Under the pieces are notes generated by a model. The model was not told the origin of the DNA and did not search any database. It was given only the letters and a program-made list of their open reading frames with translations. DNA of 61,684 nucleotides from Acidobacteriota bacterium (GTDB taxonomy: Bacteria; Acidobacteriota; Thermoanaerobaculia; Thermoanaerobaculales; Sulfomarinibacteraceae), in assembly GCA_015493585.1 (NCBI GenBank), contig WGCW01000062.1, forward strand, positions 1 to 61,684, given 5' to 3'. Both the position numbers and the translations under genes were made by a program. Below are positions 11,645 through 30,922 of this stretch, in pieces (within the stretch, counting starts at the first letter, position 1; each line of letters begins with the position of its first letter).

Positions 11645-11653
11645 GGGAGCAAC

Positions 11654-13297
11654 ATGACTGACGATCAAGATCTTGAAAACGCTGTCGCCATGCTGCGGTC
11701 GGAGACCGCCATCCACGAGGACAATGATCTCGCGGCGGCCGAGGAGCTGGCGCGCAAGATAGGTCTGCCGTTCGATCCGCTCGACGAATTTCACGTCGAT
11801 CCCGATCTTTTCAGAACGATCCCGGTCGAGACGATGCTGCGATACCAGTTCGTTCCAATACGGGAAACCGGAGGCGTGCTGCAAGTCGTCATGGCCGATC
11901 CATCGGACGTCGTGATGGTGAACGAGCTCGAAATGATCCTCGCGCGTCCCCTCGAGCTCTCCGTCGGGCCAGCCCACCGGATCTCCGATATCCTCGAAAA
12001 GTCGGAGTCAACCCAACGCGTCCTCGACGAGGCAACCGAAGGATTCCGGATGCAGCTCGTGCAGGAGGCGGAGGACGGCGAGGAGGTCCTCTCGATCGAC
12101 CGCATTACGGCGGACGCGTCCCCCATGATCCGGCTGGTCGATTCGATTCTTTTCAACGCGATTCAACGCCGTGCCTCGGATATTCATATCGAAACCCGGG
12201 ACCGTGAGGTCGTGGTCAAGTACCGGATCGATGGCGTGCTCTACCAGGCGATGGAGCCGATCGACAAGCGGCATCATTCGACGATCATCAGCCGAATCAA
12301 GGTGATGTCCGAGCTCGATATCGCCGAAAAACGGATCCCGCAGGATGGCCGCTTCAAGGTCAGGTTCTCGGGCAGAACGATCGATTTTCGCGTCTCGATC
12401 ATGCCGACCGTTCACGGGGAAGACGCGGTGATCAGAATCCTCGACAAGGAATCGGCCAACGCGGAGTTCAAGACGCTCAGTCTCGACGTCCTCGGCTTCG
12501 ACGAGGAGACCAAGCGTCAGCTGCGAAAGTTCATCCGTGAGCCGTACGGCATGGTCCTCGTGACGGGTCCGACCGGCTCGGGAAAAACCACGACGCTGTA
12601 CGCCTGCCTGTCCGAAATCGTCAGCTCCGAGGACAAGATCATCACGATCGAGGATCCTGTCGAGTACCAGCTCCGTGGCATCACGCAGATCCCCGTCAAT
12701 GAAAAGAAAGGGCTGACTTTCGCGCGAGGGCTGCGTTCCATCCTGCGGCACGACCCGGACAAGATCATGGTCGGCGAGATCCGGGACACCGAGACGGCAC
12801 AGATCGCAGTCCAGTCAGCCCTGACCGGCCACCTCGTGTTCACGACCGTGCACGCCAACAACGTCGTCGACGTGCTAGGCCGCTTCCTCAACATGAAGGT
12901 CGATCTCTACAACTTCGTCTCGGCGCTCAACTGTGTCCTGGCGCAACGCCTCGTCCGGAAGATCTGCACCCACTGTAAACGTCCGGTTCATGTGTCTCCC
13001 GAGCTGTTGGAAGAATCCGGGCTCGAGCCTGACCAGTATGCCGACTTCACCTTCTATGAAGGTGCAGGTTGCGTCGAGTGCAACGGTACGGGGTTTCTGG
13101 GACGGTGCGCCATCTCGGAGCTCTTGAACCTGTCCGATAACATCCGCGAGCTGATCATGCAGCGCCGTTCGGCGGCAGAGATCAAACGTGCCGCCAAGGC
13201 TGAGGGGATGCGCTTCCTCAGAGAAATCGCTCTGCAGAAGGTGTTCGCTGGAGAAACGACCCTACGCGAGGTCAACAAGGTGACATTCGTCGAATGA
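11654..13297 (+). CDS. gspE: Type II secretion/type IV pilus assembly ATPase GspE/PilB
   Basis: A 547-residue AAA-type secretion ATPase. The N-terminal MshEN-like domain spans about 30-150. Walker A GPTGSGKT is at about 305-312, followed by the Asp box (EDPVEYQL), Walker B (ILRHDPDKIMVGEIRD) and the His box (TGHLVFTTVHANN). A tetracysteine zinc motif, C438/C441 and C473/C476, identifies an extension ATPase rather than a retraction ATPase. It powers pseudopilus or pilus growth. It starts nine bases after gspF with a GGGAG site and overlaps pilM by four bases. Confidence 0.96.
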   Translation: MTDDQDLENAVAMLRSETAIHEDNDLAAAEELARKIGLPFDPLDEFHVDPDLFRTIPVETMLRYQFVPIRETGGVLQVVMADPSDVVMVNELEMILARPLELSVGPAHRISDILEKSESTQRVLDEATEGFRMQLVQEAEDGEEVLSIDRITADASPMIRLVDSILFNAIQRRASDIHIETRDREVVVKYRIDGVLYQAMEPIDKRHHSTIISRIKVMSELDIAEKRIPQDGRFKVRFSGRTIDFRVSIMPTVHGEDAVIRILDKESANAEFKTLSLDVLGFDEETKRQLRKFIREPYGMVLVTGPTGSGKTTTLYACLSEIVSSEDKIITIEDPVEYQLRGITQIPVNEKKGLTFARGLRSILRHDPDKIMVGEIRDTETAQIAVQSALTGHLVFTTVHANNVVDVLGRFLNMKVDLYNFVSALNCVLAQRLVRKICTHCKRPVHVSPELLEESGLEPDQYADFTFYEGAGCVECNGTGFLGRCAISELLNLSDNIRELIMQRRSAAEIKRAAKAEGMRFLREIALQKVFAGETTLREVNKVTFVE

Positions 13298-14202
13298 AAT
13301 TGGAACGTTTTTTCACGACGCCTCCCCCACCGGCAGCCTGGTCGCTTGCCGAGGATGGCATGGTGGTGCTGCACCGGGAAAAGAAAGGAGAGGAGCTGTG
13401 CGCGGGCGCCTTTCTCGAGCCGGGCGTGCTCGGCGTCGGCCCCGCCGGCCTGCAGAGCGTCGACCGGAACCGGTTGGGGCCCGTGCTGGCCAGCCTCCAG
13501 GAGCAGGTGCACGGGGTGCGCCGCCCCACAGTGATCGTGCCCACCGGCTGGGTCCGCGCCAATCTGCTCGAGCTCGAGACAGTGCCACGCCGCCGCGCCG
13601 ACCTTGACGAGGTCGTCAGGTGGCGGTTGAAGAAGGTGTTGCCGGTTCGGCCGGAGGAGCTCAGGTTCGATCTTGTCCAGATCGGCTCTGACCGCGAGGG
13701 GTCGAGACTGGTGTGCGTCTCGGGGCTCGAACGGGCCTATGCCGCGCTGGAAGCAGCGTTCGAGGACGCCGGGATGCAGCCGGCGATCGTGACACCCCGT
13801 GTCTTCGCCATTTCCGCTGTGGCCCCTCCCTCTTTAGAAACGGTCATGATCGTCCATCTCGATCGGACCGTGCTTTCAGTGCTGGTGATCCGGAAGGGGC
13901 GGATCGAGCTGCTTCGAACCAAGTGGCTCCCACAGAGCCGGCCGCTCGAACAAATCATCACCGGGGAGCTCAACCTGACGTTACTGTACCTGCGCGAGCG
14001 GCTCGAAATCGGTGGTGAAATCTGGATCGTGTGTGCCGCCGAGGGGGGCATGGAACCGGATACCATCGAAAACTGGATCCTCGAACAGGACATGCTCGAG
14101 CGACTTCCGGATCTGCCATCTCCGGCGTGTCCGGAACGGGAGAACCTCGACGTCAGCTTACTGCCACCGGCATTGGCGATGGTTCGTGGAGATCGCGTAT
14201 GA
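13294..14202 (+). CDS. pilM: PilM/GspL-like actin-fold assembly protein
   Basis: A 302-residue cytoplasmic protein resembling PilM: WSLAEDGMVVL near the N terminus, an SSRF-like middle, RRRADLDEVVRWRLKKVLPV and a diverged actin fold with MIVHLDRTVLSVLVIRKG. PilM with PilN and PilO forms the inner-membrane assembly platform. Motifs for nucleotide binding are weak, as in GspL-like members. It overlaps gspE (ATGA) and pilN (ATGA). The call rests partly on position in the cluster. Confidence 0.8.
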   Translation: MKLERFFTTPPPPAAWSLAEDGMVVLHREKKGEELCAGAFLEPGVLGVGPAGLQSVDRNRLGPVLASLQEQVHGVRRPTVIVPTGWVRANLLELETVPRRRADLDEVVRWRLKKVLPVRPEELRFDLVQIGSDREGSRLVCVSGLERAYAALEAAFEDAGMQPAIVTPRVFAISAVAPPSLETVMIVHLDRTVLSVLVIRKGRIELLRTKWLPQSRPLEQIITGELNLTLLYLRERLEIGGEIWIVCAAEGGMEPDTIENWILEQDMLERLPDLPSPACPERENLDVSLLPPALAMVRGDRV

Positions 14203-14771
14203 CAATCCCGAACCTCGCTTCCCGCCCGTTCATGAATACCCGGCCCGTTTGGTGGTTGACGGCCGTCGCCAGCGCGTTGGCCGTCTTCCTGCTGGCCGTC
14301 GATGTGCACCTCTACTATTCCGGGAGCCGAAAGCTCGACGAGCTCCTCGCGCAACGCGACCGGCTCGTCACGAGGCAGAGCGAGCTCGACCGGAGGGTCC
14401 GGCGCGATGTTGCCAGCTTGTCGAAGGTCCCGTGGAAGGCACTCAACGCAAGGGTCTCGCGGCTGAATGGAATTCTCGGTGGTCACGCATTCTCGTGGCT
14501 CAAGCTCCTCGACGATCTTGGACGGGTCCTCCCACGGCAAGTCAGGCTCTACCAGGTGTCCCCATCGGTCACCAAGGAGGGCTTTCAGCTAGGCCTCCGC
14601 GGCACCGCCAAGACGCGCGCCGCCATGATCCAGATGCTGGAAAACATGATCGCCGATCCTCACTTTTTCAACCCGCTCCCCCGTTCCGAAAGCACACCGG
14701 AAGCCTCGAAGAGTGCCGGATACGAGTTCATGCTTCGCGTCGGGTACCGGAGCCGGGAGGCCACACAATGA
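14199..14771 (+). CDS. pilN: PilN-like assembly protein
   Basis: A 190-residue single-span protein. NLASRPFMNTRPVW resembles the conserved N-terminal peptide by which PilN docks on PilM. One membrane helix is at about 18-39 (WLTAVASALAVFLLAVDVHL), then a coiled-coil segment (YYSGSRKLDELLAQRDRLV) and a ferredoxin-like periplasmic domain (DLGRVLPRQVRLYQVSPS, LRGTAKTRAAMIQMLENMI). The ATG at 14199 overlaps the pilM stop. Confidence 0.85.
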   Translation: MTIPNLASRPFMNTRPVWWLTAVASALAVFLLAVDVHLYYSGSRKLDELLAQRDRLVTRQSELDRRVRRDVASLSKVPWKALNARVSRLNGILGGHAFSWLKLLDDLGRVLPRQVRLYQVSPSVTKEGFQLGLRGTAKTRAAMIQMLENMIADPHFFNPLPRSESTPEASKSAGYEFMLRVGYRSREATQ

Positions 14772-15412
14772 GAGCCCGTAGCGTTGCCTGGTGGGCGCTC
14801 TGGCCGGTATGGGTCCCGGCCGTGGCGGTCCTTGCCGCCTCGCTGGCCGGCTATGTCTGGCTGAACGGCACAAACGTGGGTCGGCAGGCACAGGTCCAGA
14901 AGGAAGTCACCCAGCTCAAGGCACGGGTCGCTCATCTCGAAGCGCTCGACCGGGAGGCCTCTTCGAACCGGGCCGCCATGGTCAAGCTCGACCACGACCT
15001 GCACTCGGTCTATGGCTCGATCTTCGGCTCCCTCTCCGAGCGGCTCCCTGGAATCCTCAAGGCGATCGGATCATCCACACAAAAGGCGGGGCTCTTCCCA
15101 GAGAGGTACTCGTACAACGCAAAACGTGACGAGAAGCTCGATCTCGTCCGTTTCGGAATCCGATTTTCCGTGTCCGGCAATTACGTGCAGATCCGGAAGC
15201 TGCTGGCGGCGCTCCAGGCGAGCCCCGAGTTTTTCATCGTGGACCAGCTCCGTCTCGGCGGGGAAGCAGGAACGATGACCAATCAACTCAAGATCTCGAT
15301 CCACCTCAGCACCTACCTCGCCAAAGCTGACGAAATGCTCCTGAAAAGGCTAACCGGAGGGTTTGACCAGACGCCCTCAAAGGGCCGTAGCCAAAGGAGA
15401 ACCGGATCATGA
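14768..15412 (+). CDS. pilO: PilO-like assembly protein
   Basis: A 214-residue protein with one N-terminal membrane helix (about 8-33), a short coiled coil (VQKEVTQLKARVAHLEALDR) and a ferredoxin-like domain with RFGIRFSVSGNYVQIRKLLA and SPEFFIVDQLRL, the usual PilO pattern. It pairs with PilN in the periplasm. The ATG overlaps the pilN stop (ATGA). The C-terminal tail (KGRSQRRTGS) is basic and short. Confidence 0.85.
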   Translation: MRARSVAWWALWPVWVPAVAVLAASLAGYVWLNGTNVGRQAQVQKEVTQLKARVAHLEALDREASSNRAAMVKLDHDLHSVYGSIFGSLSERLPGILKAIGSSTQKAGLFPERYSYNAKRDEKLDLVRFGIRFSVSGNYVQIRKLLAALQASPEFFIVDQLRLGGEAGTMTNQLKISIHLSTYLAKADEMLLKRLTGGFDQTPSKGRSQRRTGS

Positions 15413-15472
15413 GGAGGGTCAGGATGCAGCCCGTGCCGCAGGAGCGTCCACCGGCCGCTGACGGAGGGTGCC

Positions 15473-16045
15473 GTGGATAAGGCTGAACGAAACCGGTTGA
15501 CCGTGCTCCTTGTCATCCTTGCAGCCGTACTGCTGATCTGGGTGATCGTCCAGCACCGGAGCGGTACCGGCGCTCACGGTGCCGGAAGCGCGGGCGAGGT
15601 CGCCTATGCGGCGGGAACCGTTCCGGCGCTAGATCTTGCGGCGCTGACACCGTTGCCGGAAACAAGCGCCAAGTTCCAACGCAATCCGTTCACCTTCGGC
15701 CGGCCCCCAACACCAACGCCGAATTTGACGCCGCGGCCAACGCTGCCGCCGCGGCCGACGCGCAGGCCCTGGCCCACCCCAACGCCATATGTCGTTCACA
15801 CAAAGGATGGCCGGACGCTGGGTCCACCCCCACGATTTACAGCGCAGTACATCGGGTATTTTGGACCGTCCAACTTGCCCATCGCCGTTTTCAAAGAGAA
15901 AAACCAGATCGAGATTGCCCCGCAGGGGGGCGTTCTCAACGATGTCTTCTTGATTCGAAAGGTCGGCTATGACTCGGTGGAGATCGGGTATGTCGGCTAT
16001 CCGGAGGAGGTCACGAAGCGTGTACCGCTTGCAGCCAAGAAATAG
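15473..16045 (+). CDS. PilP/GspC-like inner-membrane linker protein
   Basis: A 190-residue protein with one membrane span (about 9-27) and a periplasmic part. QRNPFTF echoes the (R)DPF motif of PilP/GspC, a Pro/Thr-rich linker follows (about 77-105), and the C-terminal domain (FTAQYIGYFGPS, PQGGVLNDVFLIRKVGYDSV) resembles the homology region that contacts the secretin. The GTG start is supported by GGAGGG five bases upstream. It lies directly before the secretin gene and overlaps its preferred start. Confidence 0.75.
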   Translation: MDKAERNRLTVLLVILAAVLLIWVIVQHRSGTGAHGAGSAGEVAYAAGTVPALDLAALTPLPETSAKFQRNPFTFGRPPTPTPNLTPRPTLPPRPTRRPWPTPTPYVVHTKDGRTLGPPPRFTAQYIGYFGPSNLPIAVFKEKNQIEIAPQGGVLNDVFLIRKVGYDSVEIGYVGYPEEVTKRVPLAAKK

Positions 16046-18446
16046 TCGAGCCCGTATGTGGCTAGCGATCGGCCTAGCCGGACTGATGTTCATGACGGGA
16101 TGTGCCACCCAGAAGGCGGCGCGCCAGGGTGAAAAGGCCGTTGAACACGAGAACTGGGACGGTGCGGTGTACTACTACCTGGAAGCGCTGGCAGCCGACC
16201 CAACGAACATCCACTACCGGATGGAGCTGATCAAGGCCCGCCAGAAGGCCGCCGAGGCCCACTTCAAACGCGGGATGACCCTCAAGGACCTTGGACGGCT
16301 GATGTCTGCGAAGAATGAGCTTCAAATGGCCGTTCAGCTGGATCCAACCAATCAGTACGCAGCTCAGGTCTTGAAAAAGGTTGAGAAGGATCTTGAGATA
16401 CTCGCCCGTCCTAACGGCAAGAAGACAATCGAGGAGATGAAAAAGAAGGCTGGCGAGATGAAGGTCAAGCCGCCAGTCCTCAATCCCAGGTCGCCCGAGC
16501 CGATCACACTAAGCTTCCCGAAGCCAAAGCCGGTCAAGGAGATTTACCGGGCGCTTGGAAAAGCGTACGGGTTCAACGTGCTTTTTGATCCGAAGCTCAA
16601 AAACACGAAGCTCTCCATCGAGCTCAGGGACGTCACGGCGAAGCAGGCACTCGAAATCGTCATGCAGGCCGCTGGCGAGTTCTACAAGGTCATCGATCCA
16701 AACACCATCATCATCGCGGATGACACGCCGCAAAACCGCAGGGATTACGAAGATCTCGTCATCAAGACCTTCTTCCTGTCCAACGCCGATGTCAAAGATG
16801 TCGACAAAGCGCTCCGGTCGTTGATCGAGGCCCGGCGGATTGCCACGGACAAGCAACTCAACGCGATCACAATCAGGGATACTGCAGATAAGGTCGCCAT
16901 TGCTGAGAAGCTGATCAAAACGCTGGACAAGGCCAAGGGCGAAGTCATGGTCGACGTCGAGTTGCTCGAGGTCAACTCGACCAAGTTGCAGGAGCTCGGG
17001 ACCGAGCTCTCGACCTACACAGTTGGGCTGAACCTCGACAACGCAAAAGTAACCGGCGGATCCGGGACCGACAACCCAATTTACCTCAACCAGCTCTCAA
17101 ACATCACCAACGGAGACTGGTCAGTCACTGTTCCCAACGTTCTGATCAACCTCGTCAAGTCGACGACCGACGCCACCTCGCTGGCGCAGCCGCAGATGAG
17201 GATCACGGAGGGTGAGAAAGGCTCTCTGGTCATCGGCCAAAAGACGCCAATCCCCGTAACGAGCTTCAACACCTCCAATACGATCGGCGGCAACATTGTG
17301 CCGCTGACCTCCTACCAATACCAGGATGTCGGCATCAAGATCAACGTCGAGCCGAGGGTCCATCACAACCGGGAGATCACACTCAAGGTCAAGGTCGAAG
17401 TGTCGCAAGTCGCCGGCACTGCACAGGGTGGTATGCCGATCATCGGGACGCGGACGATCGATACCGTCATCCGGCTCAAGGATGGCGAGACCAACATGCT
17501 GGTCGGTCTGTACAAAGAAGACAAAACGAAAACGGAAACGAAGACGCCTTTTCTTTCCTCGATTCCACTGATCGGAAAACTCTTTACGAACACCAAGACT
17601 CAAAAACAAACGACAGACCTCGTCTTGACCTTGACGCCGCACATTATCCGGTATCCCGATATCGAGCAGTCGGACCTTGCACCGATGTGGGTTGGTACCG
17701 AAAAGCGGATCTCGTACTACGGGAATTCGCCTCGTATCCGGTCCGGCCGCGGTTTCGAGGGACCATTTGGGAGCTCCGATATCAAGCCGGAGATCAATAC
17801 CCGCCGCCGGAAGCTCGACCAGCGAATCCGTCTCCGCCGGATCAAGCCGCGCGTATCGAAACCCATCATACGTGCGCCGAGAAGGGGTAGATCACTCATC
17901 CCTGGCAGCGGGCCGCTCAGCGCTCAGGGCGTCGAAACGGCCCAGGAGGGAGAAGGAGCGGACGAGACGGCCCAACCGGCGGCCGGTGGAACGAGCACTG
18001 AAGGGGTCGGCGGCCCGGCAGGACAGACGCTTTCATTGAGCCTGCAACCGGGCGTCATCTCGCTCCGGCCGGGCGTCACGACCAAGGTGCGGGTGGTGAT
18101 GCAGGGCTCTTCCGGCTCGTTCCAGGTACCGGTCGGCGTTTCATACGATGCCAGCCGGCTGAAGATTGTCAATGTCAAGCTAGGACAAGGCGTCGAGGAG
18201 AAGGGCGCCCAGGAGGCACCGTCAGCGGGCTGGGTCAACCTGAACCTGACGGTCGATCACCCAGATGCCGGCGCGCACCAAACCGTTGCAACTCTGACGC
18301 TGAAGGCGCTCCAACCCGGTCAAATACCCCTGGTCCTATCCTCCCAGGGTGCGTTGGATTCAAATGGTAACCTCCTGACGGTCTCGGCGGGACAGGCGAC
18401 GGTGTTTGTGCTCCGAGCTAACCGCGTCGTTGGGGATGGGGACTAA
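16020..18446 (+). CDS. gspD: Outer-membrane secretin GspD/PilQ-like lipoprotein with TPR and cohesin-type domains
   Basis: An 808-residue secretin. I chose the GTG at 16020: GGAGGAGG lies nine bases upstream and this start gives a basic leader before the hydrophobic core and lipobox FMTGC (Cys28). The ATG at 16056 would lose the basic residues. Domains in order: TPR-like helices (about 30-125); secretin and TonB short N domain (155-230, VKEIYRALGKAYGFNVLFDP); N1 domain (245-310); secretin pore (320-560; KDGETNMLVGLYKED and TPFLSSIPLIGKLF are diagnostic); a basic Pro/Arg linker; and a C-terminal cohesin-like beta domain (about 675-805, LQPGVISLRPGVTTKVRVVM). It forms the outer-membrane channel. 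Confidence 0.92.
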   Translation: MYRLQPRNSRARMWLAIGLAGLMFMTGCATQKAARQGEKAVEHENWDGAVYYYLEALAADPTNIHYRMELIKARQKAAEAHFKRGMTLKDLGRLMSAKNELQMAVQLDPTNQYAAQVLKKVEKDLEILARPNGKKTIEEMKKKAGEMKVKPPVLNPRSPEPITLSFPKPKPVKEIYRALGKAYGFNVLFDPKLKNTKLSIELRDVTAKQALEIVMQAAGEFYKVIDPNTIIIADDTPQNRRDYEDLVIKTFFLSNADVKDVDKALRSLIEARRIATDKQLNAITIRDTADKVAIAEKLIKTLDKAKGEVMVDVELLEVNSTKLQELGTELSTYTVGLNLDNAKVTGGSGTDNPIYLNQLSNITNGDWSVTVPNVLINLVKSTTDATSLAQPQMRITEGEKGSLVIGQKTPIPVTSFNTSNTIGGNIVPLTSYQYQDVGIKINVEPRVHHNREITLKVKVEVSQVAGTAQGGMPIIGTRTIDTVIRLKDGETNMLVGLYKEDKTKTETKTPFLSSIPLIGKLFTNTKTQKQTTDLVLTLTPHIIRYPDIEQSDLAPMWVGTEKRISYYGNSPRIRSGRGFEGPFGSSDIKPEINTRRRKLDQRIRLRRIKPRVSKPIIRAPRRGRSLIPGSGPLSAQGVETAQEGEGADETAQPAAGGTSTEGVGGPAGQTLSLSLQPGVISLRPGVTTKVRVVMQGSSGSFQVPVGVSYDASRLKIVNVKLGQGVEEKGAQEAPSAGWVNLNLTVDHPDAGAHQTVATLTLKALQPGQIPLVLSSQGALDSNGNLLTVSAGQATVFVLRANRVVGDGD

Positions 18447-18449
18447 GGC

Positions 18450-18920
18450 ATGATGAACGTTCGTTCGCACGCCGGCGAGCGCGGCTTCACCCTGGCTGAG
18501 CTGGTCATGGTGGCTGCCCTGATCACGATCCTTGCCGGGATCGTGCTGCCGGTCGCGAAGTATGCGGTCAAACGCCGCAAGGAGGCGGAGCTCCGCCTGG
18601 ACCTGCGGATGATGCGCAACGCCATCGACGAGTACAAGCGCATGGCGGATCAGGGCATGATCCAGGTCAAGATCGGCACGGAAGGCTATCCGCCCGATCT
18701 CGAGACGCTCGTCGAAGGAGTCAAGGTCGTCGGCAAAACGGCGAAGCACAAGTTCATGCGGCGCATCCCCAGGGACCCAATGACTGGCGAAACCAAGTGG
18801 GGATTGCGGTCCTACCAGGACGAGCCAAACTCGACGACCTGGGGCGGTCAGGACGTGTACGACGTCTACTCGCTGTCGGACGGGACGGCAATCGACGGTA
18901 CGAAGTACAAGGATTGGTGA
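18450..18920 (+). CDS. Type II secretion pseudopilin, GspG-like
   Basis: A 156-residue prepilin. GERG|FTLAELVMVAALITIL holds the prepilin peptidase site, with Phe at mature position 1 and Glu at +5. A hydrophobic helix is followed by a globular domain with PRDPMTGETKWGLRSY and DVYSLSDGTAIDGTKYKDW, the calcium-loop region typical of GspG. It forms part of the pseudopilus shaft. It directly follows the secretin gene. Confidence 0.9.
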   Translation: MMNVRSHAGERGFTLAELVMVAALITILAGIVLPVAKYAVKRRKEAELRLDLRMMRNAIDEYKRMADQGMIQVKIGTEGYPPDLETLVEGVKVVGKTAKHKFMRRIPRDPMTGETKWGLRSYQDEPNSTTWGGQDVYDVYSLSDGTAIDGTKYKDW

Positions 18921-18928
18921 GACACACG

Positions 18929-19369
18929 ATGGACGATACAAGACGTGAGTCACGTTTGAGAACCGGTCCGGCAGGGTTCACGCTGATTGAGCTGATCGTG
19001 GTCGTTGCGATCATCGGTATTCTCGCCACGATCGCCGTTCCTGCGATGAAAAACGCGCCACAGAAGGCCAGGGAGGCCGCGCTCAAGGAGGATCTGTTCA
19101 CGATGCGCTCGTGCATCGATCAGTACCTCGCCGACAAGGGGCACTACCCGCCGTCTCTGCAGGCGCTGGTCGACGCAGGCTACATGCGGCGGATCCCGGA
19201 AGATCCGATCACGAAATCAACCAAAACGTGGAAGGTCGACTACGCCGAAAGTGACCAGGACACCGACCTCCAGCCGCCCGACGAGCAGGGCGGGGGTCCA
19301 GGCATCATCGATGTGCACTCTGGGGCTCCGGGAACGGCTCTCGACGGAACGACGTACGCCGACTGGTAG
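18929..19369 (+). CDS. Type II secretion pseudopilin, GspG-like (second copy)
   Basis: A 146-residue prepilin: GPAG|FTLIELIVVVAIIGIL with Glu at +5, then a globular domain ending in DVHSGAPGTALDGTTYADW, closely parallel to the C terminus of the gene before it. The pair probably arose by tandem duplication. The ATG at 18929 is eight bases after the upstream stop; an in-frame ATG at 18797 lies within the upstream gene and would bury the cleavage site too deep. Confidence 0.9.
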   Translation: MDDTRRESRLRTGPAGFTLIELIVVVAIIGILATIAVPAMKNAPQKAREAALKEDLFTMRSCIDQYLADKGHYPPSLQALVDAGYMRRIPEDPITKSTKTWKVDYAESDQDTDLQPPDEQGGGPGIIDVHSGAPGTALDGTTYADW

Positions 19370-19371
19370 CG

Positions 19372-20088
19372 ATGCGGATTCGGATGAACTTGTTTGGCAT
19401 CATGCCGGCGCCCTCCGTACACGCCTCACGAACGGAGTTCGCTTCTGAAGGCGGCTTCACGCTCGTGGCTGTACTGGTCATCATCGCGGTCATGTCGATC
19501 ATGCTCGGCGTGATCATTCAGACGGCGACGTTCCAGATGAAGCGGGAAAAGGAAGAGGAGCTGATTTTCCGTGGCCATCAGTACGTCGAGGCGATCCGCC
19601 TGTTTCAGAGGAAGTACGGGCGGTACCCGATGTCATTGAAGGAAATCTGGAAAGCGAAACCCCGGGTGATCCGGAAGAAGTGGAAGGATCCGATCACGGA
19701 TTCGTATAACTGGGGGCTGGTCCATCCGGGGCAGGGCGTTCACAAGATCCGTCCGCCCCGTGTCGGAGGCTCTGGATTTGCGCCAACGCCGACCCCCACA
19801 CCGACGCCGACCCCCACACCACAACCCGGTGGCTCGGGCGGCTTTGGCGAACCACCCAAGGAAACCGGGCCAATCATTGGCGTGTTCTCCAGGAGCTGTG
19901 AGAAGAGCATTAAGATCGTCGATGGACGGCAAAAGTACTGCGAGTGGAAGTTCGTGCTCGAAAGCGCACTCCGCCGGCGTCCCGGCGTGCGTGGCCGGCC
20001 TCCCAGGGGTCTCCGTCCCCCAGTTCGCAGGCCACCTGGGGTGCGTAGACCACCTGTGCGCCGGCCCCCGATTCGCCGCTTCCACTGA
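19372..20088 (+). CDS. Atypical pseudopilin with Pro/Arg-rich basic tail
   Basis: A 238-residue prepilin-like protein. The leader is long (28 residues) and ends SEGG|FTLVAVLVIIAVMSIML. Mature position +5 is Ala rather than Glu, as in tip pseudopilin GspK and some minor pilins. A helical/globular region follows (KREKEEELIFRGHQYVEAIR, KWKDPITDSYNWGLVHPGQG), then (TP)6 coded by an 18-base repeat, and a very basic C terminus (about 200-238) of RP, RPP and RRPP units. It may cap the pseudopilus; the basic tail could bind acidic polymer or nucleic acid, which is inference. It ends the secretion operon. Confidence 0.82.
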   Translation: MRIRMNLFGIMPAPSVHASRTEFASEGGFTLVAVLVIIAVMSIMLGVIIQTATFQMKREKEEELIFRGHQYVEAIRLFQRKYGRYPMSLKEIWKAKPRVIRKKWKDPITDSYNWGLVHPGQGVHKIRPPRVGGSGFAPTPTPTPTPTPTPQPGGSGGFGEPPKETGPIIGVFSRSCEKSIKIVDGRQKYCEWKFVLESALRRRPGVRGRPPRGLRPPVRRPPGVRRPPVRRPPIRRFH

Positions 20089-23643: not shown

Positions 23644-23671
23644 AAAAAAAGGGAGGCCTGAAAGGCCTCCC
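23644..23671 (-). terminator. Rho-independent terminator of the cytochrome operon
   Basis: On the minus strand GGGAGGCCT, a 3-base loop, AGGCCTCCC and then TTTTTTT: a 9-bp perfect stem with a U tract, about 22 bases after the octaheme cytochrome stop. Confidence 0.93.
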
Positions 23672-23693
23672 CGGGGTTCTTGTTCTCATCGGG

Positions 23694-25508
23694 TCACTTA
23701 CCACGGTTGAGCTCTTCGATGATCTTGGCATGCGCCTCAGTCTGGCTTTGCTGGGACGATTCGTCTGTATCCCACCAGCCGCCGCCTGGACCGTAGTACT
23801 CCATCAGCTCGTTGGCGTTTTTCACCTCGAAGGTGCTCTTCCAAACTCCGATGTCGGGTGTGATCCCAAAGCCCCAGAGGTTGACCTTGAGCGAGTGGCA
23901 GCTCACTGCACACGAGTTTGGCATCCCGCCCTGGTTCTGGTAGGCGAGGGTCTTCTCAGGCGGAATCACCTCAAAGGTATGGGAATGGATGTCGAAATTG
24001 ATGGCCGACTTGGCCACTTCCGGCATGTGGCACTTGGTGCAGCGGGAGAGCCCCATCTTGCGGTCCGGGGCATACGGGTGATGCGTATGTTTGCGTACCG
24101 CCTCGCCAATCGCCTCGACGTTGTTTGCATAATCAGCGACCATCTCCGGCTCGATTCCAAAGTCGTCGGCATGGCATGAAAGGCACAGCGTGTCGTTGTC
24201 CACCGCGGTCTTAAAGGTGATTCCATCGTCCTCGCGTTCTTCGACGATCATATGTTCGTTCGAGCTTCCATGGGCATCGTGGCATGTGATGCAGGTAACC
24301 TCGTCATCGGTGCTCGTGGACATCGCGCTTGTTGAGAAGTCCTGGAACTGCTGGTGGTGCTGCTTTGAGGTCTTGCCGTCGGGCCAGCGGCCGGCCGCAT
24401 CGGTCCAGAAGTCAGAGAGCGGCTGACCGATGCCGGGATACCACTGGGTGTTTGTGGCATCGTTGTACGGCCAGTCATGAGTCCCGTTGGGCACCGACTT
24501 CACCCGCACGTGACACTGCTCGCAAATCTCGTTCTGGCCTTCACGGTCGAGCTTGGCCGGATTGATGATCTTTGACGGATCGCCGCCTCCAAGGATGTGG
24601 GCGGAGCCGGGACCGTGGCAGGCCTCGCACTGGATGTTAAGGATGTCGACGTTGCCGTCGTGGTCATAGTCGAAGTAACTCGGGTCGTCCTGGTTGTAGA
24701 GCACCGCCAGGTAGGGCGTGTACTTCCACTCGCCGCTCGTGGTTTTTTGCAGATTCTTAATCCCCGTCGTATGACAGCCGATGCACTTTTCGGAGTACTG
24801 ACGCGAGTTCTCGGCCGCGAGCTCGGCCGCGGTCGTCGACGGGTTGAACTTCGGCTGGTGATTGGCGTCGTACCATGCGTCAGCGTGGTATAGCACATAC
24901 TGGTGAGTCTTCTCGTTGAACTGGATCGGCGAAACATAGTTGTCGACGGAGTAGCCATCGGCCGTATCAGACACCGGCACGCGAACCAGAAAACGCTGTT
25001 TCCAGTCGCCGGTACCGCCCTGCGTGCAGACGACCGGCATTTTGTCCTGCCCAATCGTGATGTAATACGTACCGTTTTCCACGGACAGGATCGGCGCATT
25101 GGGTTTATACGGGTCGAAAACCGAGGAGATGGTGTTGAAGTCCAGCCGCTGCTCGAAGTCGTCGACGCCGTTCTGGTCATAGTCTGCGACGACTCCCCTC
25201 CCAGGAATCAGCGAGTACTGAACCATCGGCCGGCGGAGCGCCTCGAAGTGCTTCGTGTTGCGCAAAGCTGGTTTGTTGTGGCAGGCCAAGCAAAACTCGG
25301 CACCGACGTAGACGCCCTTCTCGAGCTGTTGGGCTGTGTAAAGCGACTGAAGTCTCTGCACCCCCTGCGTGACGGTGGTGGCAGTTACCGGTCGTATCAG
25401 CTTCACCGAGCGGACTTTGTGGCTACTGCGCAGTTTGGGCCCACCCGCCGAAGCGGCGGTCACAACACCGAGGACCAAAACGGCTGCAAGAATCGGGATA
25501 CGCCTCAT
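23694..25508 (-). CDS. Octaheme c-type cytochrome
   Basis: A 604-residue exported cytochrome with a signal peptide (cleavage near AASAGG). It has seven CxxCH motifs (CLACH at C73, CIGCH at C242, then CEACH, CEQCH, CITCH, CLSCH, CTKCH) and an eighth of the form CAVSCH (CxxxCH), so probably eight hemes. About 165 heme-free residues separate hemes 1 and 2, containing DYDQNGVDDFEQR, which resembles a calcium-binding EF-like loop; YFDYDHDGNVDI later is another. There is no lipobox. It follows the decaheme gene by 26 bases with a strong AGGAGGT site. Likely the periplasmic or exported redox partner of the MtrAB-like conduit; an enzymatic role of the octaheme reductase kind is also possible. Confidence 0.85.
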   Translation of the reverse strand: MRRIPILAAVLVLGVVTAASAGGPKLRSSHKVRSVKLIRPVTATTVTQGVQRLQSLYTAQQLEKGVYVGAEFCLACHNKPALRNTKHFEALRRPMVQYSLIPGRGVVADYDQNGVDDFEQRLDFNTISSVFDPYKPNAPILSVENGTYYITIGQDKMPVVCTQGGTGDWKQRFLVRVPVSDTADGYSVDNYVSPIQFNEKTHQYVLYHADAWYDANHQPKFNPSTTAAELAAENSRQYSEKCIGCHTTGIKNLQKTTSGEWKYTPYLAVLYNQDDPSYFDYDHDGNVDILNIQCEACHGPGSAHILGGGDPSKIINPAKLDREGQNEICEQCHVRVKSVPNGTHDWPYNDATNTQWYPGIGQPLSDFWTDAAGRWPDGKTSKQHHQQFQDFSTSAMSTSTDDEVTCITCHDAHGSSNEHMIVEEREDDGITFKTAVDNDTLCLSCHADDFGIEPEMVADYANNVEAIGEAVRKHTHHPYAPDRKMGLSRCTKCHMPEVAKSAINFDIHSHTFEVIPPEKTLAYQNQGGMPNSCAVSCHSLKVNLWGFGITPDIGVWKSTFEVKNANELMEYYGPGGGWWDTDESSQQSQTEAHAKIIEELNRGK

Positions 25509-25534
25509 ATTGACCTCCTTTGTCCCGTAGGGAG

Positions 25535-26386
25535 TTACTCAAAAAGCCGTGGATCACGGTTCGAGCCGTGGATCCCCTGGTGACACGTCTGGCACGCACG
25601 GTAGCGCGCCTTCGTCAGATCATGGAACGCCGCCACGTCGGCGTGACACTCCAGACAGAGGTCGCTGACGTTGCGTCTCGTGAGCTGCCACGGGTTCATC
25701 GAACCGTGCGGCTCGTGACAGGCCACACATCCATCCACCTCCCGCGGTGGATGGGGATACACGAACGGGCCAGCCTTCCCCGTGTGGCACCTGATGCATA
25801 CCCCACCGTTGGCGAGCATTTTCAGGCGGCCGCGCTCGCTCTGCCCGTGAGGATCGTGGCATTCGGTGCACGCGAAGGGATGGTGCGCGCCCTCACGATG
25901 GGCGTACGGGAGGTTGAACGCCGCCGCCTCGGTTATGTGGCAGCTCCCACAGAGCTTGACTGGCTCGGCCTTGAGCATGTGGGCCACGTTGGACGGGGTA
26001 TGCCCCGGCTGGTGACAATCCAGACACGCCACCCCGTTGCGTACATGGGCCGGAGTGGACAGCTCAAGGCCGGCCTGCCGGTCCGCGTGACACTGCAGGC
26101 AGACCTTGCTCGTGGGTCGCTGTACGATGTTCGTGGTGGAGGGATCGTTGATGTGAGCCGTTCCCGGGCCATGACACGCGACGCACGCCCGCTCCAGAAT
26201 CTTGTGAGAGACCTTCGCCATCGCCCGCCCATGGGGCCCCGCGAGGAACGCCGCAGCCACATCGACGTGGCAGGTCGCGCAGGTATCAGCGGTAACCGGC
26301 TCTCCGGCCCGGGCCAGGGGCGCCACGATCAGGGCCGTCAGGCCAACCAAGAATCCAGCCAGCATCGTTATCATCCGCCGCATCAT
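25535..26386 (-). CDS. Decaheme c-type cytochrome, MtrA/DmsE-like
   Basis: A 283-residue exported protein with a signal peptide (ending near ARAGEP) and ten CxxCH motifs: CATCH (C36), CVACH, CLQCH, CLDCH, CGSCH, CTECH, CIRCH, CVACH, CLECH, CQTCH. Ten hemes in under 300 residues is the density of MtrA/DmsE/PioA, which form a heme wire through an outer-membrane barrel. The start overlaps the stop of the MtrB-like barrel gene (TGATG), the same pairing as in known mtrAB/pioAB loci. Two successive ATGs (26386, 26383) are possible starts. Confidence 0.92.
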   Translation of the reverse strand: MMRRMITMLAGFLVGLTALIVAPLARAGEPVTADTCATCHVDVAAAFLAGPHGRAMAKVSHKILERACVACHGPGTAHINDPSTTNIVQRPTSKVCLQCHADRQAGLELSTPAHVRNGVACLDCHQPGHTPSNVAHMLKAEPVKLCGSCHITEAAAFNLPYAHREGAHHPFACTECHDPHGQSERGRLKMLANGGVCIRCHTGKAGPFVYPHPPREVDGCVACHEPHGSMNPWQLTRRNVSDLCLECHADVAAFHDLTKARYRACQTCHQGIHGSNRDPRLFE

Positions 26387-28239
26387 CAGAAGCCCCAGTG
26401 CAGAGCGAGGCCATACCGGGCGACGCTGAAGTCGTCCACTTGGGCCCGTTTTTCATCGTACGACCAGTACTGTCCGAAAACGCCGGCCATCAGCCGGCCG
26501 GACACCGTGAAATCGAAACGCACCGCCGCGTTCCACGCGTCAACTGGCCACGTTTTCCCCTGGTCCGTCAGCCAAGCCAGCCGGCAGGTTAGCCTCCGTG
26601 ATGTATCACCAATCCTGGCGAAGGCGGACAGTCGCCGGACCGACGTGTCGTAAAGCGATGTTCCATGATCCCCGGTCGGTAGGATGAGACCGGTATTGGT
26701 GGAAAGATCGAGGACCGACGCATCCATTCCGACCGACGTGTTTCCCCCGGCCGGCGTCCACATGAGGGCCGTGCCGATGGCCGTCGAATTGGTCGAAAGA
26801 TCAGAAACGCCGCGGGAATTGTCGGTGCCCTCGTATCGCCCGTGGACATTGAGAACCCACGCTTTGCCAATGTGGGACCTCATCCGGATGGTCACCCGGT
26901 TGACCGTCTCCGGGTCTGTCCTGAAGACATACTCCTGGAAGGATCCATGCTCGTACTCGACACTCCCCTGGAATCGCCGTCCAAGGTTGAGCGAAGCGCC
27001 CGCCACGGCCCCGCTGGAATCCCGATTGACGTCCACCCGGGTTCCCTCCTTCGTGAGCCGCCATGTGACATCGCGGCTCGCCGCCAATCCGCCGGCCCAG
27101 ACGGACCAGCGGTTCTTGCGGTACTCGACCTCGAGACGGCCCCTCGTGTCGGTCGTGTCGAACCGTCCCGTGTCATCGATCGGCGTGCTCAGCTCCAGCG
27201 CAGCGCCGGTCGGATTGAGGGCCTTGAGCAGCCGCTCCCCGAGCAGGCTGGAATCAGAGCTGGCGTCGCGATAATCAGCGGAGAAACGGACCCGCCAGGG
27301 CCCGCCGAGCCGAAAGGCGAGGCGGTAGGCTCCGGCCAGCGTATCCGTTGACGCGGATCCCACCAGGTCATCCAGGAACTGAATCGTACCGACCCGTCCC
27401 TCGTCTACGGCGAAGCTCTCCCATCCTGCCCCGGTCGCATCGAGGTCTACCGAGCTCCAGAGGACGGAGAGAACCGTCTCGACACGGCCCCGCGCATAGC
27501 TCGCCGTGGCCCGCCCGGAGGGGACGTCCTGGCGCTCATGCATCGTGGTTCCGACGTCCGTGAGGCGGTCGGGATCGGTGGGGTCGAGAGAGACGCTCCC
27601 CGCCGGCGACCAGCGATTCCGCCGGTCGTAGGTCGAGTAGATCGCCTCGATGTCGAGCACCACCGGCAGGCTCTTCGTCACGAGCCTCAGGCTTCCCTCA
27701 TTCATCGTCTCGTCGAGGGCAACGTGCAGTGGGTAGAGGTTATTGAGGCCGTAGAAAGGCCTGAAGACCGTGCCGCTGCGCTGGACGTGGCGGACGTTCA
27801 GCGTCAGCGTCGCTGCGCTCCAGCCCGTCAACCTGACCCTGCCGCTCCAGCGCGTGATGTTCCATCGGTCGGTCCTGGCCCCCAGGTCAGACTGGGAGAG
27901 ACCAAAAAAGGTGTCCCGCCGATCGTACCTCACAGCTACCGACCAGTCCTTCCCCGGCGCGAAGCTCAGGCGACCGTGCTCGGTCGGCTCGGCCTGGCCA
28001 AACCCCCACGCCTGAAGATGGAATCGCGGCCGCTGCCGGGTCTTCATCGCCAGATCCAAGCTCTCGAGCACGAAGCCCTGATCCAGCGCCTGTTGACTCC
28101 GGAAGCTATTCTCACTCCCCGCCGCGTTCTGCCACACGTAACCGATCCCGATCTCGCCCTGCCATGTCTGTGCAGCAATCGGTGACACGGCGAGCCCCGC
28201 TGTCACAAGGGCGGCGCCGGCACATCTCAGCCGGACCAT
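26386..28239 (-). CDS. Outer-membrane beta-barrel, MtrB/PioB-like
   Basis: A 617-residue protein from the ATG at 28239, which gives a clear signal peptide (MVRLRCAGAALVTAGL...IAAQ). The mature chain is full of alternating amphipathic strands (WSVAVRYDRRDTF, RVRLTGWSAATLTLNVRH, RLTCRLAWLTD) and ends in phenylalanine (LALHWGF), the mark of outer-membrane barrels. Size and pairing with a decaheme cytochrome fit the MtrB/PioB sheath. It lacks the N-terminal CxxC of Shewanella MtrB. An in-frame ATG at 28365 would add 42 residues before the signal and is less likely. First gene of a three-gene operon. Confidence 0.85.
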   Translation of the reverse strand: MVRLRCAGAALVTAGLAVSPIAAQTWQGEIGIGYVWQNAAGSENSFRSQQALDQGFVLESLDLAMKTRQRPRFHLQAWGFGQAEPTEHGRLSFAPGKDWSVAVRYDRRDTFFGLSQSDLGARTDRWNITRWSGRVRLTGWSAATLTLNVRHVQRSGTVFRPFYGLNNLYPLHVALDETMNEGSLRLVTKSLPVVLDIEAIYSTYDRRNRWSPAGSVSLDPTDPDRLTDVGTTMHERQDVPSGRATASYARGRVETVLSVLWSSVDLDATGAGWESFAVDEGRVGTIQFLDDLVGSASTDTLAGAYRLAFRLGGPWRVRFSADYRDASSDSSLLGERLLKALNPTGAALELSTPIDDTGRFDTTDTRGRLEVEYRKNRWSVWAGGLAASRDVTWRLTKEGTRVDVNRDSSGAVAGASLNLGRRFQGSVEYEHGSFQEYVFRTDPETVNRVTIRMRSHIGKAWVLNVHGRYEGTDNSRGVSDLSTNSTAIGTALMWTPAGGNTSVGMDASVLDLSTNTGLILPTGDHGTSLYDTSVRRLSAFARIGDTSRRLTCRLAWLTDQGKTWPVDAWNAAVRFDFTVSGRLMAGVFGQYWSYDEKRAQVDDFSVARYGLALHWGF

Positions 28240-28400
28240 CACCACGGGCCCATCTCCCAGCAGCCAAGCCACCTTCGGCGGCTGAGCACGTGATTCTGAG
28301 ACAATTCGTTCAGTGAAGGTCTTGAGCTTGTCTTCACAGACGTATACCCAAAGACACGCCTCCATTCTCCGAATTTACTTGCACGATGGCTCATAAAATC

Positions 28401-28429
28401 AATATATTATATGTCCCCGTCCATGTCAA
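28401..28429 (-). promoter_or_regulatory. Consensus sigma-70 promoter of the MtrB/MtrA/octaheme operon
   Basis: On the minus strand TTGACA (28429-28424), a 17-base spacer and TATATT (28406-28401). The -35 is a perfect consensus and the spacing ideal. Transcription would start near 28394, giving about 155 bases of leader before the ATG at 28239. An overlapping TATAAT is spaced too closely (12) from the same -35. Confidence 0.8.
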
Positions 28430-28839
28430 GCCCTCGGCAGTGAAGGTGCACCTAGCTATCGTGGCGAGCGTCGAGGGATCTGCGTTGGATGGAACCAGCA
28501 GAAAGAAAATCACCAGGGAGAGTCGGCTGCGGGCTTGTCTCCCCACATCACGACACTGGCGCAACCTTCTCTCATTCAGTCGTGATCGTGGCTCAAGCCA
28601 CTCTCACCGGCCCGGTTTCCAGGATACGAGGTCATGCGGCGTACCTGGTCATTTCTCCTCGCCCTGTGAGATGAGGGCGTGCAGGATAGCCGATGCGGGC
28701 TACCGGCGAAGCTCCTATACGGGCTGGGGAAGGTATGGCCGATTGCGCGCAGCCACAGCCTCGAGTGGAGGGACAAGCCGGGGTTAACGATGGTGCGCTT
28801 TGTATATGAACTTGCTGAATTGTGAAGATAGGCAAAATC

Positions 28840-28868
28840 TTGCGAAAATGCGGCGGCGTCAATAGAGT
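28840..28868 (+). promoter_or_regulatory. Candidate promoter of the 20-heme cytochrome gene
   Basis: TTGCGA (28840-28845), a 17-base spacer and TAGAGT (28863-28868), with the start codon 38 bases beyond and a GGAGG site between. Confidence 0.5.
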
Positions 28869-28906
28869 AGGCGTGCCACTGAAACGGGCCCGCAACGGAG
28901 GAACGC

Positions 28907-30922
28907 ATGGATCGAGACGACATGCCCACCGGAAATTCTTCGCATCCAGACGAACAGGTGCAGAAAGGCTCAATCGAGCCACCCCGGGACCGTCAGCGTT
29001 TGATGAGGATGGTCTTGGCGGCCGTCATCGTCATCGTGATCGTTGGCGCCGCGTTCTGGATCTTCCTACGCGCTACCGGAAGCCCCCATTACTACAAAGC
29101 GATGCCCTGGTTGACCGAATACGTGACCTCGTGGAGCCACTCGTCTCACAAGAACGTGCCGTGCCGGACCTGCCATTTTGGCCCCGGCGCCAGTGGAGAC
29201 ATCCGTACCCAACGCGTCGGGGTCGCCCTCGCCATCCAAAGACTGACAGGCACGGGAGACACATCGGCGTTCCGGCATATCAACAACAAAGGGTGCACCG
29301 AGCACGGCTGTCACGCCGGCCTCCTCAAGGGTGGCACGATCGAGTGGCATGGCGTCAGGTTCTCCCATGCAGATCACTTGGGGAAGATCAAGCGGGGGAT
29401 CACGCTTGAGTGTACGACGTGTCATCAGAGCTTGGTCCACGGCAACGGCACTTCAGTCGTCAACACGTCCTCCTGCACGATCTGCCACTTCAAGAACCTC
29501 GGCTGGGGCGAGGACATCTCGAGATGTCAGCTCTGTCATGACGTCACCAGGCTTGCCAAGGCCCGGTACAACCACAAGCTCGTTCTCGCCAAAAAAATCC
29601 CGTGTCTGGACTGTCATGCCGGCGTCAACCGGGGGCATGGAACCGTCGACAAGAACCGGTGCGTGGCGTGCCACACGGCGGGTGACCGGGTGAAGAAATA
29701 CTCGGACTTCGCCTTGATTCACAAGATACACGTGACAGGCCAAGGGTTCCCGTGCACCTTCTGCCACGAGACGATCGAACACAAGAACCGTCCCCTCTCG
29801 ATCACGTCTTCCGAGGATTGCACGGCCTGCCACCGTGATGCCCACGTCTCGACGAGAAGCCTCTACCTCGGTATCAACGCGGCTTCTCCGGGCGCGGGAG
29901 CTCACCCCGACGCGATGGCGGCGGTCCACGTCCACTGCCAGGGCTGTCATACCTCCTGGAAGAAGCGCCCGGACGTTGCAACGCGCTACCCAACCGCTGC
30001 ATCGTGCAACTCGTGTCACGGACCCGGATACGGCAGGATCCTTCACCAGTGGTCGCAGATCCTCAGGCGTGATCTCGCCGCGGCCCGCACGGCGGTGTCG
30101 GGCGCCAGAACCGCCGTTGCGTCCAGCCGTTCCGCCACGGCACGAGCGGATCTCCATGCGGCGTCCACCATGCTCCGCCAGGTCGAGGCCGGACACGGTG
30201 AGCACAACATCGTCTTTGCCGCAACACAGCTTGACGGAGCCATTCAGAAGGCCAATGCAGCCCTGCACGCAGCTGGAAGCCAGCGGTTGTTCCCCCGGCT
30301 CGCCGACGCAAAGAAACTGACAGCGAACGCCTGTGCACGCTGCCACTTCAATCCACCGGCCACCGTCATGTACAAGGGCAAGCCGTTCCCGCACGGCAAA
30401 CATATCGCCGCCGTTGGGGACTGCGAGTCATGCCACACGCCGTACTCCGACCATGGCAAGCTCGCGTGGGGCAAGGAAGCATGTGGCACGTGTCACGGCG
30501 GGGTCCCACTGCCGCATCCGGCGAACTTCCGCTCTCAGATGGGCCGTTACGTCAAGAAGGCTGGCTTCGATACCTGTCTCCAGTGTCACAACACCACCGA
30601 GTCCCAGGAGAGGTGCACGCCATGCCACGAGGGCGGTCCCAAAAAGGTGGTCACCTGGCATGGGATGCCGTTCAGTCACGAAAATCACGCCAAACACGGC
30701 ATCGAGTGCACGACCTGCCACACTGAGCTCAAAGCGCACGGTGGCATCAGCCTGAGCCCGAAGGAATGCAACGCCTGCCACGGCGTCCCAATGCCGCACC
30801 CGGATGATTTCGTCGAGACGCACGGCAAGCTGTTTACAGAGCACAAGCTCGAGCTCGACACGTGTTCAACGTGCCACGAAGGAGGCATGCCCGGCAAGTT
30901 CTGCCAGACCTGCCACGGCTGA
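28907..30922 (+). CDS. Membrane-anchored 20-heme c-type cytochrome
   Basis: A 671-residue protein with a 32-residue cytoplasmic N terminus and one uncleaved-looking membrane helix (about 33-56), so it is probably anchored in the inner membrane facing the periplasm. I count 19 CxxCH motifs plus one CTEHGCH (CxxxxCH, C130), starting with CRTCH at C86 and ending with CQTCH four residues from the C terminus. Hemes 1-11 and 12-20 form two groups, split by about 100 heme-free helical residues (372-475). The single-helix anchor recalls NapC/CymA quinol dehydrogenases. A GGAGG site is five bases before the ATG. It is divergent from the MtrB/MtrA-like operon and likely passes electrons to it. Confidence 0.9.
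   Translation: MDRDDMPTGNSSHPDEQVQKGSIEPPRDRQRLMRMVLAAVIVIVIVGAAFWIFLRATGSPHYYKAMPWLTEYVTSWSHSSHKNVPCRTCHFGPGASGDIRTQRVGVALAIQRLTGTGDTSAFRHINNKGCTEHGCHAGLLKGGTIEWHGVRFSHADHLGKIKRGITLECTTCHQSLVHGNGTSVVNTSSCTICHFKNLGWGEDISRCQLCHDVTRLAKARYNHKLVLAKKIPCLDCHAGVNRGHGTVDKNRCVACHTAGDRVKKYSDFALIHKIHVTGQGFPCTFCHETIEHKNRPLSITSSEDCTACHRDAHVSTRSLYLGINAASPGAGAHPDAMAAVHVHCQGCHTSWKKRPDVATRYPTAASCNSCHGPGYGRILHQWSQILRRDLAAARTAVSGARTAVASSRSATARADLHAASTMLRQVEAGHGEHNIVFAATQLDGAIQKANAALHAAGSQRLFPRLADAKKLTANACARCHFNPPATVMYKGKPFPHGKHIAAVGDCESCHTPYSDHGKLAWGKEACGTCHGGVPLPHPANFRSQMGRYVKKAGFDTCLQCHNTTESQERCTPCHEGGPKKVVTWHGMPFSHENHAKHGIECTTCHTELKAHGGISLSPKECNACHGVPMPHPDDFVETHGKLFTEHKLELDTCSTCHEGGMPGKFCQTCHG

Follow-up and report, generated by a model that had tools for sequence, protein, structure and literature searches.

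We analysed a stretch of 61,684 nucleotides from an Acidobacteriota bacterium (contig WGCW01000062.1 of assembly GCA_015493585.1, positions 1 to 61,684 of the forward strand; hereafter the window), in which four neighbouring genes encode three multiheme cytochromes and a putative outer-membrane barrel. The window is one of the 194 contigs of a 3.1 Mb genome that is 99.6% complete. On the minus strand lie the genes of a barrel-like protein, a decaheme cytochrome and an octaheme cytochrome, together called the trio, and on the plus strand lies the gene of a 20-heme cytochrome. The four open reading frames of the original prediction and its counts of 10, 8 and 20 heme motifs were recovered, and its total of 38 holds because two non-standard motifs, CX3CH and CX4CH, are counted. 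Considering that the other open reading frames of at least 100 residues in the window contain at most one CXXCH each, the clusters of heme motifs are not due to chance. The features are as follows.

23650..23672, minus strand: candidate intrinsic terminator, 10-bp GC-rich stem with a T6 tail, about 22 bases past the octaheme stop
23694..25508, minus strand: OcwA-related octaheme c-type cytochrome, 604 residues, seven CXXCH motifs and one CX3CH (CAVSCH, residue 533)
25535..26386, minus strand: MtrA/DmsE-like decaheme c-type cytochrome, 283 residues, ten CXXCH motifs, assigned by profile and PDB homology
26386..28365, minus strand: barrel-like protein, 659 residues, signal peptide MVRLRCAGAALVTAGLAVSPIAAQ, with the mature protein probably starting near 28239
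28401..28429, minus strand: candidate sigma-70-type promoter of the trio, TTGACA-17-TATATT (11/12)
28907..30922, plus strand: 20-heme cytochrome, 671 residues, 19 CXXCH motifs and one CX4CH (CTEHGCH, residue 130), predicted to be inner-membrane-anchored

The barrel, decaheme and octaheme genes

As originally predicted, the decaheme gene overlaps the barrel gene, by the one base shared between stop and start in TGATG. The decaheme stop is separated by 26 bases from the octaheme start, which is preceded by AAAGGAGGT, a strong ribosome-binding site. When 60 regions from relatives were scanned with profiles, the barrel-decaheme-octaheme order on the same strand was found in 28 loci across Acidobacteriota, and loci with the trio cover the window's family, order and class plus further families of the phylum. 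In two further distinct loci the order was octaheme-barrel-decaheme, and a third octaheme-first case (L049) was left out of the count since its barrel and decaheme belong to an already counted trio. Here L-numbers denote the loci scanned, G000 this genome, and G005, G007, G010 and G021 the genomes of relatives. Based on the overlapping or closely spaced genes, the promoter-like and terminator-like boundaries and the order shared by 28 loci, the trio probably constitutes a single operon. Both boundaries are matches to patterns, with two promoter candidates found in the region where 1.3 were expected by consensus, and seven terminator candidates found against 5.2 expected, among which this hairpin has the longest stem. 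As the regions had been picked by a decaheme, octaheme or 20-heme match, the figure of 28 loci is a count that gives no frequency. Among 396 genomes drawn evenly from the phylum, the octaheme was present in 24 and a decaheme of this broad type in 79.

The same genome encodes a second full trio in the same order (L041 9045-13562, G000:C122), 47-61% identical to that of the window, with 59% identity between the decahemes. Apparent barrel-decaheme fusions in relatives, with open frames of 739-1346 residues, were set aside, as those examined were out-of-frame stretches at high G+C.

The decaheme matched the solved MtrA in PDB entry 6r2q_A with E=4.6e-23; the molecule name in the database is mislabelled, and PMC12133095 supports identifying the chain as MtrA from the MtrCAB structure of Shewanella baltica. 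With the NCBIfam model TIGR03508 it gave E=1.2e-50 and 172.3 bits, and because this score is under the DmsE cut-off of 192.2 we denote the protein as MtrA/DmsE-like. The hhalign probability was 99.9% against a Photobacterium decaheme whose gene lies between those of an OmcA/MtrC-like protein and a barrel. Among 20 homologues, all ten CXXCH motifs are invariant, and ten histidines outside the motifs are candidate distal ligands, nine of them invariant and one conserved at 95%, which is the number required for bis-His ligation of ten hemes.

The assignment of an outer-membrane barrel in the original prediction stands in part: the strand-like pattern and the C-terminal Phe agree with it, while neither the family library, in which nothing scored above cut-off, nor the PDB, searched with the sequence and its profile, returned a match. 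A crude custom script gave 26 strand-like peaks for the family alignment compared with 16.2±2.7 for shuffled ones; the control barrel at the MtrB position in Photobacterium also gave 26, and the octaheme control showed no excess. No alpha-helical membrane segment was seen in the barrel protein. The GSU2204 family matched 13 of the 18 barrel homologues weakly, and OMP_b-brl gave a few weak matches in the wider family. From the strand pattern and the terminal Phe, the protein is probably an outer-membrane barrel. Distances between homologues of the barrel and the decaheme correlate with r=0.95 over 31 triplets, and those of the octaheme with either protein at about 0.6; shared descent feeds all three correlations, so that only the contrast between them is informative. 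The tight pairing and the matches of the decaheme to 6r2q and TIGR03508 support the predicted conduit of the MtrA-in-barrel type.

The octaheme cytochrome, proposed as the outer end of the conduit

All eight heme motifs of the octaheme, CX3CH included, are invariant in 23 homologues. A PDB search with the octaheme profile gave 6i5b as the best match (E=1.2e-23), followed by 6qvm (4.6e-9), cytochrome c554 and MtrA. The database entry of 6i5b is silent on its identity, and we took it as OcwA on the ground that the residue numbers of the His-His motifs in the OcwA paper match the chain at a constant offset. That of 6qvm is likewise silent and names it 'multiheme cytochrome cf'; from this name and the length we take it to be OmhA of Carboxydothermus ferrireducens. 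The hhalign comparison with OcwA reached 99.7% over 245 columns, and the octaheme is evidently homologous to OcwA over the C-terminal heme core, which spans hemes 3-9. OcwA is a cell-surface reductase of the Gram-positive Thermincola potens and itself reduces nitrite and hydroxylamine (PMC6703420). Two histidine pairs of the window octaheme, HH384/385 and HH476/477, align with the His-His motifs over the open hemes 2 and 5 of OcwA (PMC6703420). Of the 23 aligned octahemes, 10 have both histidines of the first pair; in the second pair, H477 is invariant and the position before it varies. Open-site hemes are thus plausible in the window octaheme, though not a rule of the family.

The two proteins also differ. 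OcwA has nine hemes whereas the octaheme has eight, leaving heme 7 of OcwA without a counterpart (hmmsearch, mafft and hhalign), and the octaheme has CX3CH as its last motif and a longer stretch between hemes 1 and 2. An MccA-like layout with heme 5 missing, suggested by spacing and motif, was dropped, as it is heme 7 for which the alignment programs find no partner. The protein was also considered as an octaheme tetrathionate reductase, of which the model TIGR04315 matched one of 23 sequences (E=0.55), and as a truncated MtrC, for which PF22113 gave 29.1, just under the cut-off of 30. The latter score was given no weight because the model also matches the 20-heme and 23-heme proteins here. 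Separately, 15-heme proteins of 943 and 923 residues (L069 8732-11563 and L070 7768-10539) have an N-terminal half 43-45% identical to the octaheme and another multiheme region as the remainder, and we regard them as naturally occurring domain swaps that involve the head of the octaheme.

In the original prediction, no OmcA/MtrC lipoprotein was encoded and the octaheme was proposed as a possible outer partner. The former was confirmed for the whole genome, where the best TIGR03507 score was 26.4 bits against a cut-off of 209.3, and the latter gains support here. Taken together, the trio would be a trans-outer-membrane conduit in which an OcwA-type octaheme takes the position of MtrC as the terminal oxidoreductase, with the 20-heme protein as a separate element, a reading to which we assign a probability of roughly 0.6. 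Judging from homology and the conserved pairing, the MtrA-like decaheme would sit in the MtrB-sized barrel and carry electrons across the outer membrane. The octaheme, of the OcwA-type fold and with at least one heme likely open to substrate, would then dock at the outer end. In L049, L051 and L053, immediately after the trio comes a 696-residue ten-heme protein that is accompanied by a decaheme and a barrel of its own. Of these ten-heme proteins, the two tested scored 460 and 455 bits, above the OmcA/MtrC cut-off of 209. An MtrC-MtrA-barrel set beside the trio supports an extracellular role of the octaheme, and it also suggests that the octaheme is no mere replacement of MtrC in these loci.

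Several results weigh against this reading. The octaheme in the role of MtrC is its weakest step, because a lipid anchor is lacking and the superfamily shared with OcwA includes periplasmic enzymes. The octaheme has a plain Sec-type signal, and no lipobox was found in it or in nearly all of its homologues; some loci carry it without the trio, and its distances follow those of its partners less closely. On the side of the barrel, PF11854 (MtrB/PioB) gave E=0.0014 and 18 bits for the window protein, under the cut-off of 23, and weak matches in two of 18 homologues. The hhalign comparison of the barrel family with one Photobacterium MtrB-position barrel, a weak reference as a single sequence, was not significant. 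Structures of the barrel and the octaheme were predicted from three sequences per alignment with very low confidence, at a pLDDT (predicted local distance difference test) of 27 and 30.

The missing lipobox and the solitary occurrences of the octaheme would also fit a different arrangement, in which barrel and decaheme form the conduit with a bare outer end, as in PioAB/MtoAB, and the octaheme works in the periplasm as an enzyme or carrier, for example one reducing nitrogen or sulfur oxyanions or handing electrons to the conduit. Its membership in the c554/NrfA/MccA superfamily and the activity of OcwA on nitrite and hydroxylamine point the same way (PMC6703420), as does a periplasmic octaheme predicted beside some mtrCAB clusters by Baker et al. 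(PMC8805035). However, the octaheme keeps its third place in the operon in many families, its nearest solved relatives are cell-surface cytochromes, and by profile it is not an octaheme tetrathionate reductase, so we consider a periplasmic octaheme unlikely, if the strongest of the competing explanations. Considering the wider OcwA/c554/NrfA/MccA superfamily, an enzyme is possible, including a dedicated periplasmic reductase as considered in the original prediction. An extracellular octaheme might be a multi-electron enzyme with open-site hemes, in which case the conduit would supply the extracellular turnover of a soluble substrate; such a cytochrome-enzyme partner was found in no described MtrAB system, and we hold this version to be doubtful.

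The 20-heme cytochrome and the quinone side

The 20-heme gene is evidently a separate, divergent transcription unit. Its CX4CH motif is invariant in its family, and the single N-terminal hydrophobic segment (residues 36-54) agrees with the inner-membrane anchor that had been proposed. The original prediction went further and placed the gene in a four-gene block, a path of 38 hemes in which a single chain, the 20-heme protein, links the oxidation of quinol to the conduit. The divergent arrangement in the window and the single membrane anchor are in favour of such a path. However, related genomes keep the trio, and the 20-heme gene adjoins it in this genome only, among the genomes compared. In the sister genome, the assembled sequence upstream of the trio does not contain the 20-heme gene, which is on another contig; in G005 and G021 the gene and the trio are also on different contigs, and G007 and G010 have the 20-heme protein with neither octaheme nor trio. 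The octaheme is present in four of the seven 20-heme genomes, and this co-occurrence was not significant (Fisher p=0.23, with few cases and low power).

The recurrent neighbour of the 20-heme gene is CbcL-like. In G005, G007 and G010 the gene adjoins a 23-heme protein and a gene of 353-368 residues, and in G005 the 23-heme neighbour has a C-terminal cytochrome-b domain and the other is a radical SAM gene. The 23-heme protein shares the multiheme and membrane cytochrome-b architecture of CbcL/MtoC/MtrH, of which CbcL-type homologues with up to 23 motifs have been published (PMC6295460), whereas the 20-heme protein differs in lacking a cytochrome b domain and having only one anchor. This genome's own 23-heme protein (76% identity) lies on contig C101 (3.6 kb), and on C186 there is an 11-heme/b-type pair, in which the second protein matches the 23-heme protein in its cytochrome-b part. 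On the trio contig of the sister genome, the 23-heme gene is about 17 kb away and an 11-heme gene with a 333-residue gene, the counterpart of the C186 pair, about 5 kb away. The radical SAM gene beside the 23-heme CbcL-like gene in L062 (14667-15773) encodes an AmmeMemoRadiSam-system enzyme (286.8 bits, cut-off 220), and similar-sized genes are at this position in L063 and L064.

Ancestry as a quinol dehydrogenase of the NapC/NirT type, seen in distant homologues, also speaks for the one-chain bridge. PF03264 (NapC/NirT) matched the 20-heme homologues in L065 and L066 only (E=2.6e-13) and did not match the window protein, which has YYKAMPW where their N-terminus carries the heme motif FCVTCHYM. 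The window clade has evidently lost the NapC-type N-terminus along with the first heme. As the 20-heme gene is not linked to the trio and this first heme is lost, the one-chain bridge, and with it the four-gene path, is very improbable. The most economical account would be that the 20-heme protein descends from a NapC-type quinol dehydrogenase, lost the quinol-side heme and now serves as the periplasmic relay of a CbcL-like enzyme. Within the preferred scheme of a conduit ending in the octaheme, quinol would be oxidised by the separate cytochrome-b-containing proteins, namely the 23-heme CbcL-like protein and the 11-heme/b-type pair, and the most likely role of the 20-heme protein is to pass electrons from such an oxidase across the periplasm. 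In L065 (8951-15638), 20-heme (NapC-type), 4-heme, 18-heme, cytochrome-b561-like and 8-heme genes form a run with no trio nearby.

Genome context and comparison with known systems

The host genome encodes DsrA (590.8 bits, cut-off 392.9) and AprA, QmoC and Sat, each above cut-off, and the host therefore resembles the dissimilatory-sulfur Acidobacteriota of marine sediment (PMC8528874). Between qmoC and sat lies a gene (L085 7909-9873, G000:C105) for a 654-residue protein that combines nine CXXCH motifs in one chain with a membrane domain of the TauE/SafE sulfite-exporter-like type (151.6 bits) and may be a transporter of sulfite or sulfonate linked to cytochromes. In the window, a type II secretion/type IV pilus-like cluster on the plus strand (9603-20088; Secretin_N, T2SSF, T2SSE, Secretin and a weak N-methylation motif) ends 3.6 kb from the octaheme gene. 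Systems of this kind export surface cytochromes in other bacteria, and the cluster was not seen as a neighbour of the trio in the sister genome.

For such a sulfur-metabolising anaerobe, the acceptor at the outer end would most likely be Fe(III)/Mn(IV) oxide or some other acceptor outside the cell. The sequence does not fix the direction of electron flow, and we infer that it is outward. Flow might instead be inward, with Fe(II), electrodes or partner cells supplying the quinone pool via the CbcL-like protein, as the MtrAB homologues PioAB and MtoAB run inward, usually without MtrC, and CbcL/MtoC homologues are found in both kinds of organism (PMC6295460, PMC4245776). The OcwA-type partner and the dissimilatory sulfur genes fit outward respiration slightly better, and an inward module seems improbable.

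Marine Acidobacteriota metagenome-assembled genomes and Thermoanaerobaculum aquaticum share multiheme/beta-barrel clusters proposed for metal-oxide reduction (PMC8528874), and MtrCAB is reported in Acidobacteriia, with a periplasmic octaheme beside other mtrCAB clusters (PMC8805035). No published unit of MtrA-like, barrel and OcwA-like proteins was found in a search made mostly without subscription journals and preprints. The trio is widespread in this phylum, in which multiheme/beta-barrel clusters have already been proposed for metal reduction, and occurs in two copies in a genome with dissimilatory sulfur genes. Searches that demand MtrC or an above-cut-off MtrB score would overlook it, and as a short gene set it is testable.

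Compared with GSU2203/GSU2204 of Geobacter, the trio likewise contains a decaheme and a barrel, each with weak similarity, but both are far under the cut-offs (144.6 against 325 and 13 against 350) and an octaheme is added as the third gene. A true GSU2203/GSU2204 pair, at 349 and 536 bits above both cut-offs, is encoded elsewhere in this genome (L076 1846-4618, G000:C87) and is evidently its third conduit. With MtrCAB/MtrAB of Shewanella, PioAB and MtoAB, the trio shares an MtrA-homologous decaheme, an adjoining barrel gene of MtrB size and the logic of a conduit. In contrast with these systems, its barrel falls under the PF11854 cut-off, OmcA/MtrC is absent from the genome, the gene order is barrel-decaheme-octaheme and the third partner comes from a different cytochrome family. 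Unlike OcwA itself, the octaheme belongs to a diderm and its gene lies with those of an outer-membrane conduit. The trio would thereby join a diderm MtrA-type conduit with a surface reductase of the OcwA type, which is known from a Gram-positive bacterium.

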